Source of the DNA: Haloplanus sp. CK5-1
Lineage (GTDB): Archaea > Halobacteriota > Halobacteria > Halobacteriales > Haloferacaceae
Length of the DNA stretch: 64,000 nt
Assembly: GCF_037201915.1 (NCBI RefSeq)
Contig: NZ_CP147505.1
Coordinates: 992,001 to 1,056,000 of the forward strand
Reading direction: 5' to 3'
Part shown: piece by piece, positions 54,115 through 58,028 of the stretch
Layout of the letters: every line of letters starts with the position of its first letter
How positions within the stretch are numbered: position 1 is the stretch's first letter
Position numbers and translations under genes: made by a program
The notes under the pieces: generated by a model
Seen by the model: only the letters and a program-made list of their open reading frames with translations
Database searches by the model: none
What the model was told of the DNA's origin: nothing

Positions 54115-55962
54115 ATGGATCGTCCCGGCGCTGGCACCGGGTCCGGCGGCGTCGAGGTGAGCGTCGTCCTCCCCGCGTACAACGAGGCCGACACCATCGA
54201 GTCGACGGTGCGGACGACGCTGTCGGCCCTCGGCGAGTTCCTCCCTCCCGGCACCTTCGAGGTGCTCGTCGCCGAGGACGGCTGTGAGGACCGGACGCCG
54301 GCCATCGCCGACCGCCTCGCCGCCGCCGACGACCGGGTGCGTCACGTCCACAGCGACGAGCGCCTGGGCCGTGGCGGCGCGCTCGAACGCGCCTTCTCGA
54401 CCGCCCGCGGCGACACGCTCGTCTACTTCGACACCGACCTCGCGACGGACATGCGCCACCTCGAGGAACTGATCGAGCGGGTTCGCTCCGGCGACGCCGA
54501 CGTCGCCACGGGGTCGCGCTGGCTCCCCGGCGAGGTGGCGGACCGCCCGGCCAAGCGGGGCGTCCCCTCCCGCGTGTACAACCGACTCGTGCGCCTCTTC
54601 TTGCGCTCCTCCCTTCGGGACCACCAGTGTGGGTTCAAGGCGCTGAGCCGCGAGGCGTTCGACCGCCTCCACGACGACGTCGAGGACGACCACTGGTTCT
54701 GGGACACCGAACTCCTGATCCGCGCCCAGCGAGCGGGACTGACCGTCGCGGAGTTCCCCGTTGAGTGGGAGCCGAAAGGCGACACGAAGGTGGATTTGGT
54801 GCGTGACGTGTTCGGGATGGGGAGTCAGATACTGCGGCTGTGGTGGCAGGTGTCGGTGAGTCCCCGGATCACCCGGCGGGTGAGCGTCGGCGCGGGGGCG
54901 CTCCTGACCGTCCTCGCGCTCGCCCTGATGACGGTGTATCTCGACCCGCAGGCCGTCCTTCGGGAACTGGAGAGCGCCGACCGCGGTCTGGTCGCCGTCG
55001 CCGCGCTCGTCTACCTCTGTTCGTGGCCGCTGCGGGGTGCGCGCTACCGCGACATCCTCGACGAACTCGGCTACCGCGAACGCCTCGGCTTCCTCACGGG
55101 TGCGGTGTTCATCAGTCAGACCGGGAACCTCGTCTTTCCCGCACGGGCGGGCGACGCCGTCCGGGCGTACGTCGTGAAGGCGCGGCGGTCGATCCCCTAT
55201 CCGACGGGCTTTGCCTCGCTCGCCGTCGAGCGCGTCTTCGACCTCCTGACGATCACCGTCCTCGGCGCGACGGTGCTCGTCGGCTTCGTCGTCACGGGGT
55301 CGACCGACCAGGTGGTGTCGGCCGTCTCCGGCGGCGTCCCCGGCGTCGACCCGCGGAGCGCCCGGGTCGCGCTCACCGTCGCGGCCGGCGTCGCGGTCGC
55401 GGCCGTCGTCGCCCTCGCCGTCATCGTCGCCAGCGCGCGCCGCGAGGGGAACCTGATCCGCCGGTCGCTGGCCCGCGTGAGCACTGACTCCTACGCCGAC
55501 TACGTCGCGGGGATCCTCGAACGCTTCGTCGTCGACGTCCAGACGGTGGCCGCCGACCGCACCGCGTTCGCTCGCATCGGCGCGAACAGCCTCGCCATCT
55601 GGGGACTGGACGTGGTGACGGCGATCATCGTCCTTGCGGCGTTCGACGTGGGGTTGGCGCTCCCGACGCTCGTCGCCGTCGGCTTCTTCGCCGTGAGCGT
55701 CGGCAACCTCGCGAAGGTGTTGCCCCTCTCTCCCGGCGGAATCGGCCTCTACGAGGCCGCCTTCACCCTCCTGGTCTCCGGGTTGACGCCGGTGGCCGGC
55801 CCGACGGCCTTCGGCGCGGCCGTCCTCGACCACGCGGTGAAGAACCTCATCACCGTCGCCGGCGGCGTCGTCTCGATGCTCGCGCTCAACGTCTCCCTGA
55901 CCGCCGCCGTCGACGAGACGGGCGAGGCCGAGCCGCCCGATCCGGGGCCGGATTCGGACTAG
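54115..55962 (+). CDS. aglD: AglD-like glycosyltransferase with C-terminal flippase-like membrane domain
   Basis: A 615-residue protein. Residues about 14-240 are a GT-A family 2 domain (VSVVLPAYNEADTIESTVRT, DTLVYFDTDLATDMRHLEEL with the D-x-D, ATGSRWLPG, FKALSREAFDRL, HWFWDTELLIRAQRAGLTVA), as in dolichyl-phosphate sugar synthases. From about 250 on are 8 or 9 membrane helices with the LPG-synthase/UPF0104 pattern (NLVFPARAGDAVRAYVVKAR, LPLSPGGIGLYEAAFTLLVS). In Haloferax AglD has this architecture and charges dolichol phosphate with the final mannose of the S-layer N-glycan. The symbol follows this and the remembered gene order. Its stop shares CTAG with the convergent BtuF-like gene. Confidence 0.85.
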   Translation: MDRPGAGTGSGGVEVSVVLPAYNEADTIESTVRTTLSALGEFLPPGTFEVLVAEDGCEDRTPAIADRLAAADDRVRHVHSDERLGRGGALERAFSTARGDTLVYFDTDLATDMRHLEELIERVRSGDADVATGSRWLPGEVADRPAKRGVPSRVYNRLVRLFLRSSLRDHQCGFKALSREAFDRLHDDVEDDHWFWDTELLIRAQRAGLTVAEFPVEWEPKGDTKVDLVRDVFGMGSQILRLWWQVSVSPRITRRVSVGAGALLTVLALALMTVYLDPQAVLRELESADRGLVAVAALVYLCSWPLRGARYRDILDELGYRERLGFLTGAVFISQTGNLVFPARAGDAVRAYVVKARRSIPYPTGFASLAVERVFDLLTITVLGATVLVGFVVTGSTDQVVSAVSGGVPGVDPRSARVALTVAAGVAVAAVVALAVIVASARREGNLIRRSLARVSTDSYADYVAGILERFVVDVQTVAADRTAFARIGANSLAIWGLDVVTAIIVLAAFDVGLALPTLVAVGFFAVSVGNLAKVLPLSPGGIGLYEAAFTLLVSGLTPVAGPTAFGAAVLDHAVKNLITVAGGVVSMLALNVSLTAAVDETGEAEPPDPGPDSD

Positions 55963-56702
55963 TGAAGCAGGTCGGCGAGGCGCTCGACCCCGTCGATCAG
56001 GGTCGGGCTCGGCTGGTTCAGAAGCGAGTCGTCGACGACGTGGACCGTCGGGTCGGCGGCCCACTCCCGGTCGGCGATCGTCGCTGGGTCGACACGCTCG
56101 CCGTGCCCACAGACGTGGAGGACCGCGTGGTCGGGGTCCGCGGCCGCCACCTCACTCCCGTCGACCGGCCGCGAGCGCTCGCCCGGATCGACGAACGGGT
56201 AGCGCCCGCCGGCAGTGGCGACGGCTTCGGGCACCCAGTTGCCGGCGGCCATCGGCGGATCGGACCACTCCTCGCAGTAGATGGTCGGACGGTCGTCCTC
56301 GGGTACGCGCTCCCGGACGCGACGGAGTCGGTTCCGACTCCGCTCGGCCAAGCGCTCCCCCGCGTCCGGGCAGCCGACCGCCCGCCCGAGGGCGGCGAAG
56401 CCCTCGATCACCGAGTCGAGCGTGTCGGCCGTCGTGTGGTGGACCGCGATCCCTCGGTCGCGGACGGCGTCGCGGACCTCCGCCTGTAGGGCGTCGCCGG
56501 TACAGACCAGGTCGGGATCGAGGTCGTCCAGGCGGTCGAGGTCGGGGTCGAGCCACCCGCCGAGCACCGTCGGATCGCCCGCGTCGTCGAGTTCGCCCCG
56601 ACAGTGGGCCGTGACACCGACGAGGCGGTCGGCGACGCCGAGTTCCCGTAACGTGACGGTGGCGGCCGGTTCGAGCGAGACGATCCGGGCGGGGTCGGGC
56701 AT
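55959..56702 (-). CDS. BtuF-like periplasmic-binding-type protein (cobalamin/iron ABC family)
   Basis: A 247-residue protein of the BtuF/FepB substrate-binding fold: RIVSLEPAATVTLRELGVAD, RLVGVTAHCRG, DLDRLDDLDPDLVCTGDALQ, TADTLDSVIEGFAALGRAVG, and the second lobe PTIYCEEWSDPPMAAGNWVP. No signal peptide or lipobox is visible from ATG 56702, which is odd for a binding protein and suggests a cytoplasmic or salvage role. No ABC permease genes lie nearby. The sequence upstream of the start is the 28-bp repeat array. Confidence 0.8.
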   Translation of the reverse strand: MPDPARIVSLEPAATVTLRELGVADRLVGVTAHCRGELDDAGDPTVLGGWLDPDLDRLDDLDPDLVCTGDALQAEVRDAVRDRGIAVHHTTADTLDSVIEGFAALGRAVGCPDAGERLAERSRNRLRRVRERVPEDDRPTIYCEEWSDPPMAAGNWVPEAVATAGGRYPFVDPGERSRPVDGSEVAAADPDHAVLHVCGHGERVDPATIADREWAADPTVHVVDDSLLNQPSPTLIDGVERLADLLH

Positions 56703-56731
56703 GGTCGTCCCCACGCCCCCGACGGACAAGT

Positions 56732-56895
56732 AGGTCGGGGCGACGGCCCGACGAAAAGCAGGTCGGGGCGACGGCCCGACGAAAAGCAGGTCGGGGCGAC
56801 GGCCCGACGAAAAGCAGGTCGGGGCGACGGCCCGACGAAAAGCAGGTCGGGGCGACGGCCCGACGAAAAGCAGGTCGGGGCGACGGCCCGACGAA
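56732..56895. repeat. Tandem array of 28-bp hairpin repeats (five full, one partial)
   Basis: Five identical 28-bp units run from 56732 to 56871, followed by a sixth copy matching for about 24 bp. Each unit contains the inverted repeat GTCGGG-7 nt-CCCGAC plus an AAAAGC tail, so the array can form six equal hairpins. Units are joined directly with no spacers. 28 is not a multiple of 3, so it is not a coding repeat. The array fills the gap between the divergent BtuF-like and CTAG-methylase genes, 30 nt from the first start codon. Confidence 0.95.
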
Positions 56896-56957
56896 CGAGC
56901 GGACCGAGGAATCGGGAATCGACACCGATACTTGCCGTCGGTGGGCAGGTGCGTGCG

Positions 56958-58028
56958 ATGCGGACCTCTCACGACCTCCACGTCGGCGACGCTGCCGACA
57001 TGGACGCCGTCGCGGACGAGTCGGTCCACCTCGTCGTCACCTCGCCACCGTACCCGATGATCGACCTCTGGGACGACCTCTTTACGGCCCGCGACCCGGA
57101 CGTTCGTGCGGCTCTGGAGGCGGGCGACGGCGACGCCGCGTTCGAACTGATGCACGCCCAACTCGACGACGTGTGGGCCGAGATCGACCGCGTCCTCGCT
57201 CCCGGTGGCATCGTCTGTGTCAACGTCGGCGACGCGACCCGCTCCATCGGCGGCGAGTTCCAGCAGTTCCCCAACCACGCCCGCATCGTCGACGCCCTTC
57301 GCGCACAGGGGTTGACGCCCCTCCCCGACGTGCTCTGGCGCAAGCCGACCAACAGCCTCACGAAGTTCATGGGGTCGGGGACGCTCCCACCGAACGCCTA
57401 CGTCACGCTCGAACACGAGTACGTCCTCCTCTTCCGGAAGGGCGACACCCGGTCGTTTCCGCCGGGCGACGACCGGCGCTACGAGAGCGCCTTCTTCTGG
57501 GAGGAGCGCAACCGGTGGTTCTCCGACCTGTGGGAGATGCGCGGCGAGTCACAGGGCCTCGACGACTCGGCCCACGAGGAGCGTCGCGACCGCTCGGCCG
57601 CCTTCCCGCTCGAACTCCCGCTTCGTCTGATCCGCATGTTCTCGGTACGGGGCGACCGGATACTCGATCCCTTCGCGGGGACGGGGACGACGGCGCTCGC
57701 GGCGATGCACGCCGCCCGGAACTCCGTGGGATACGACCTCGACGGCGACCTGTTCGCCACCCTCGACGACCGGGTTGCGGACCTGCCCTCGGCGTCCCGA
57801 CGGCGGGTCGCCGCTCGCCTCGACCGCCACCGCGAGGCCATGACCGACCGCGACGGCGACTACCCGGCCGAACACTACGACTTCGACGTGGTGACCGAGC
57901 GAGAGCGGCGCATCCGCTTCTACGCCGTCGCGTCGGTCACGACGCGGGAGGCGGGGCGGGCGTACGTTCTCGATCACGTCCCAGTCGACGGGACCGATTT
58001 AACTCCCCCCTCCGAAGATGGGGTATGA
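56958..58028 (+). CDS. zim: N4-cytosine/N6-adenine-type DNA methyltransferase, Zim-like (CTAG)
   Basis: A 356-residue enzyme. The catalytic motif IV is VVTSPPYPMIDLWDD (TSPPY) near residues 28-34, and the S-adenosylmethionine motif I is ILDPFAGTGTTALAAMHA near 230, so the order is that of beta-class m4C/m6A methylases. No restriction endonuclease gene is nearby, making it an orphan. In haloarchaea the conserved orphan methylase at this position, before aroD, is Zim, which methylates CTAG; I base this on remembered synteny plus TSPPY. ATG 56958 is chosen with tacttgcc upstream; GTG 56949 is possible. Its stop overlaps aroD (ATGA). Confidence 0.85.
   Translation: MRTSHDLHVGDAADMDAVADESVHLVVTSPPYPMIDLWDDLFTARDPDVRAALEAGDGDAAFELMHAQLDDVWAEIDRVLAPGGIVCVNVGDATRSIGGEFQQFPNHARIVDALRAQGLTPLPDVLWRKPTNSLTKFMGSGTLPPNAYVTLEHEYVLLFRKGDTRSFPPGDDRRYESAFFWEERNRWFSDLWEMRGESQGLDDSAHEERRDRSAAFPLELPLRLIRMFSVRGDRILDPFAGTGTTALAAMHAARNSVGYDLDGDLFATLDDRVADLPSASRRRVAARLDRHREAMTDRDGDYPAEHYDFDVVTERERRIRFYAVASVTTREAGRAYVLDHVPVDGTDLTPPSEDGV

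Follow-up and report, generated by a model that had tools for sequence, protein, structure and literature searches.

A lineage-restricted intergenic minisatellite, probably amplified from a core promoter segment, upstream of a BtuF-like gene in Haloplanus sp. CK5-1

Related Systems

Intergenic minisatellites, or VNTRs, of prokaryotes consist of near-identical units of tens of base pairs that follow each other head to tail between genes, with a copy number that depends on the lineage. Two other known arrangements place similar elements side by side: tandem duplications of core promoters, which yield multiple TATA-like elements, and iterons or operator arrays, in which dyads are regularly spaced. 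In Haloferax volcanii, leaderless transcripts make up 72% of those that encode proteins, and for haloarchaea TTWT and CGAAA have been put forward as TATA box and BRE motifs, respectively (PMC4983044). Deletion work has also assigned CTAG methylation in H. volcanii to HVO_0794 (PMC5867850, PMC6471742). Among the papers searched, nothing relevant turned up on tandem repeats of Haloplanus or on VNTR promoters of archaea.

The window analysed here, a 64-kb stretch of the genome of Haloplanus sp. CK5-1, contains an array of 28-bp units between divergent genes for a BtuF-like protein and a DNA methylase. The array shares with VNTRs its near-identical tandem units, its intergenic location and a copy number that differs between related lineages, and it differs from them in that the unit seems to be derived from the adjacent core promoter and encloses a strong dyad. 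As in tandem core-promoter duplications, an element centred near -27 is repeated, being predicted in every copy of the closest relative and, in the window, in the left-most one; unlike in such duplications, the interior copies here have diverged from the native element, and any activity of the extra copies is putative. The regular spacing of the dyads recalls iterons and operator arrays, but neither a replication gene nor a regulator gene was recognised at the locus, and the site was not found in the rest of the genome. The units are contiguous and their linkers identical, without the unique spacers of a CRISPR array.

Architecture and Extent of the Array

The array at 56732-56895 consists of five identical 28-bp units, AGGTCGGGGCGACGGCCCGACGAAAAGC, followed by 24 bp of a sixth (164 = 5 x 28 + 24). 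This arrangement, with no spacers between the units, had been described in the original prediction and was confirmed by sequence check and by TRF, which delimited the repeat at 56718-56895 (period 28, 6.3 copies, 98% match, score 333). The sequence GTCGGGGCGACGGCCCGACG occurs six times, at 56734, 56762, 56790, 56818, 56846, and 56874. Counted from 56734, there are five identical units, GTCGGGGCGACGGCCCGACGAAAAGCAG, at 56734-56873 and a partial sixth, GTCGGGGCGACGGCCCGACGAA, at 56874-56895. It is the strongest tandem array of the window, the TRF runner-up there scoring 73. Across 464 kb of this genome, made up of the window and 400 kb of sampled stretches, only one array, with 65-bp units, scored higher; a chance origin is excluded.

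Each unit had been said to contain GTCGGG-N7-CCCGAC. The motif is present, although it is one of two possible registers, given that the sequences between these hairpins, CCCGAC-N9-GTCGGG, are inverted repeats too. The extent also proved larger than first proposed. A diverged left-most copy, found as the same block in the closest relative, lies at 56712-56741, where CCCCGAC and GTCGGGG enclose the AT linker GGACAAGTAG, with the TATA-like element of the BtuF-like gene. A further decayed copy is possible on the right, at 56896-56916, where 11 of 23 positions are identical to the last unit of the relative (shuffle p 0.035), a match that is suggestive only.

Other tandem repeats were noticed in these genomes. 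The 65-bp repeat of Haloplanus sp. CK5-1 (L060:13201-13690; G000:C1:653201-653690) comprises 7.5 perfect copies, the first of which starts within the 3' end of a tRNA-Gly (CCC) gene, and one or two diverged copies of it occur in some congeners. A perfect tandem repeat of 39 bp with 3.7 copies (L068:5628-5770) has a period that is a multiple of three and is possibly coding. Outside Haloplanus, a 30-bp unit repeated 2.5 times in another haloarchaeal genus (L037:2295-2368) includes the promoter-like -27 element of the next gene, and a 32-bp array of 3.2 copies and unrelated sequence lies upstream of the BtuF-like gene in another genus (L027:2303-2405). Short tandem expansions beside genes thus recur in these archaea, as the arrays of L037 and L027 and the 65-bp tRNA array illustrate, which makes the 28-bp array less special.

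The Flanking Genes and Their Predicted Promoters

To the left, on the minus strand, lies the gene of the BtuF-like protein (55962-56702; Peripla_BP_2, about 247 aa), with a predicted leaderless start at ATG 56702. The protein matches Pfam PF01497 (E 3.9e-22); among NCBIfam models it scores above the cut-off of TroA_like and far below that of BtuF. Its binding domain begins at the very N-terminus, with no obvious signal peptide, and homologues were found in 57 of 60 relatives. The distance from ATG 56702 to the array is 30 nt, in agreement with the earlier statement that the array brings the left start codon within this distance. An N-terminal extension of the protein through the array, for which the frame is open to 57416, was considered and rejected: the region is missing from congeners, and the unit length, 28, is not divisible by three.

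An AT-rich, TATA-like element, TACTTGTCC, occupies 56724-56732 on the minus strand, within the left-most diverged repeat copy; its centre lies at about -27 relative to the start codon of the BtuF-like gene. The position of the element is conserved genus-wide: in the alignment of the nine congeners with a placeable start, AT content is 63% at -29 to -23, compared with 13-29% at neighbouring positions.

To the right, on the plus strand, a gene at 56958-58028 encodes an N6_N4_Mtase DNA methylase (PF01555, E 1.5e-33) with an SPPY motif. Its domain, this motif and its wide presence (49 of 60 relatives) suggest that it is probably a conserved haloarchaeal orphan CTAG methylase of the HVO_0794 group, a specificity that would follow from the literature on relatives (PMC5867850, PMC6471742). 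The predicted core promoter element of the methylase, CGACACCGATACTTGCC, is located at 56920-56936, about -38 to -22 from ATG 56958, and is near-invariant in all 12 Haloplanus genomes; it is outside the array, to the right of which the nearly invariant sequence CGACACCGATAC begins at 56920. Since this element lies about -27 from ATG 56958 in 12 of 12 congeners, that codon is a better start than GTG 56949. The leaderless starts of both genes are predicted from position.

Distribution in Haloplanus and Beyond

The BtuF-like gene and the methylase gene are adjacent and divergent in 12 of 12 Haloplanus genomes, one per species. The array occurs in two of them, that of the window and that of its closest relative, the MAG LUM.53 (L011, genome G004), with 6.3 copies of 28 bp in the former and 2.9 copies of 29 bp in the latter. 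The ten other congeners have no copy; they keep both genes, separated by a short spacer without repeat. All three linkers in LUM.53 equal the native element, TACTTATCC, while the five homogenised linkers of the window genome read GCTTTTC on the minus strand, unlike the native TACTTGTCC. These differences between the sister species in copy number and linker homogenisation, together with the lack of an array in ten congeners, support the proposed recent expansion or homogenisation.

The left-most copies of the two genomes differ at 1 of 37 positions (p ~1e-4) and the 21-bp dyad core at 0 of 21 (p ~0.001 at the four-fold rate), the four-fold sites differing by 0.265 in the BtuF-like gene and by 0.305 in the methylase gene; the test is a rough one, comparing two genomes of GC-rich DNA over a block picked after looking. 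Conservation of the dyad core above the neutral expectation is a hint that the core is under selection and not purely neutral.

A genome search for the 28-bp unit, suggested earlier, found no further copy with three or fewer mismatches in the 3.24-Mb genome, and the 21-mer core with up to two mismatches was likewise confined in this genome to the array locus. An exact 21-mer match was also obtained in LUM.53, and elsewhere in Haloplanus the unit is present only as single inexact sites. The sole exact match of the 21-mer outside the genus, in Jannaschia rubra, was taken as chance. A mobile or dispersed element was dropped as a candidate, there being no other genomic copies and none in viral contigs. 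No Rfam match was obtained up to E 1 within 56600-57050. Another palindrome, GTCGGGCTGAAAGAGCCCGAC, has four copies in the genome (G000:C1:98535, 1532413, 2029903, and 3009910).

Origin of the Array and Alternative Explanations

The left-most copy holds the -27 element, which recurs in every LUM.53 copy, and this makes an amplification of the core promoter on the BtuF side the most likely source of the array. In full, we regard the array as a lineage-restricted minisatellite of the intergenic region that arose by tandem duplication of the core-promoter segment of the BtuF-like gene, and hold this to be probable by a clear but not overwhelming measure. The duplicated segment would comprise the AT-rich -27 element and the flanking CCCGAC/GTCGGG dyad. 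Duplication would have started in the common ancestor of the window species and the LUM.53 lineage, each lineage then undergoing separate amplification and homogenisation, presumably through slippage during replication or through unequal recombination among the units. The recurrence of short tandem expansions noted above, with the L037 and tRNA-Gly cases, favours this history too. The possible decayed copy at the right end would fit, if weakly, with older outer units. The ancestral single-copy state is itself a reconstruction, because the other congeners lack the dyad. Two further observations run against the promoter-derived origin: the homogenised linkers of the window genome differ from the native element, and the dyad is conserved beyond neutral expectation.

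This conservation is central to another explanation, in which a regulator of the BtuF-like gene binds each dyad and the multiple copies are kept by selection. Across both species every copy has the same dyad core (0/21), against a divergence of 26-30% at four-fold sites, and the -27 element of the BtuF-like gene lies between the arms of the dyad. However, with no close site elsewhere in the genome at the mismatch limits given above, there is no sign of a regulon, ten congeners keep both genes without the array, and the comparison involves two species whose GC-rich DNA may just change slowly. An operator array is thus distinctly less probable than a promoter-derived minisatellite, at perhaps one chance in a handful. 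The protein-binding iterons of the original prediction fare similarly, being possible given the conserved core and weakened by the lack of other genomic sites.

It had also been proposed that the array is a phase-variable spacer whose copy number changes promoter geometry, acting as a switch of one or both genes. Perfect tandem copies in unequal number in sister species are what such a switch would show, and each unit of 28 bp would rotate sites farther upstream by some 240 degrees around the helix. Both predicted core promoters are nevertheless outside the variable units, so that copy number cannot alter the TATA-to-start spacing of either gene as predicted, and a phase-variable switch appears improbable.

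A still smaller likelihood attaches to a structured RNA or a series of terminators, in which each unit would give, on the minus strand, a hairpin followed by CTGCTTTTCG. Five terminator-like matches were counted where 0.3 are expected, and the array folds well beyond shuffled sequences (z -9.3 as single-stranded DNA). The five matches are, however, all one repeated unit, and strong folding is expected of repeated dyads. Moreover, the LUM.53 linker, CTACTTATCC, has no T run, and both genes have their predicted leaderless starts downstream of the array, which also weakens the earlier idea of a structured 5' RNA. With the linker not conserved and Rfam negative, terminator or RNA structure was discarded as the main role.

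Regulation of, or by, the neighbouring CTAG methylase, favoured by adjacency alone, is very hard to credit because 56700-56960 contains no CTAG and the methylase promoter is conserved in the ten congeners without the array, and an assembly artefact, to which nothing beyond the perfect identity of the copies points, is just as implausible given that an independent MAG carries a related but distinct array in the same place.

Significance

The array is most likely a local repeat of an ordinary kind, amplified recently, and no new genetic system. Its effect on the BtuF-like gene would most likely be none or mild, exerted through additional upstream TATA-like boxes or operator dyads, and none would be expected on the core promoter of the methylase. 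More speculatively, and with little probability, haloarchaeal core promoters may be duplicable in units of 28-30 bp, which is roughly how far the TATA element lies from the start, yielding multi-box promoters whose copy number tunes strength or regulation; the present array and that of L037 would then be two independent cases.

In two species, the locus illustrates how a promoter segment of an archaeon may become a tandem array, with ten congeners that show the unamplified state. If the extra copies are inactive, it is an ordinary minisatellite; if they are active, it would provide a simple natural test of promoter copy number against expression in archaea.
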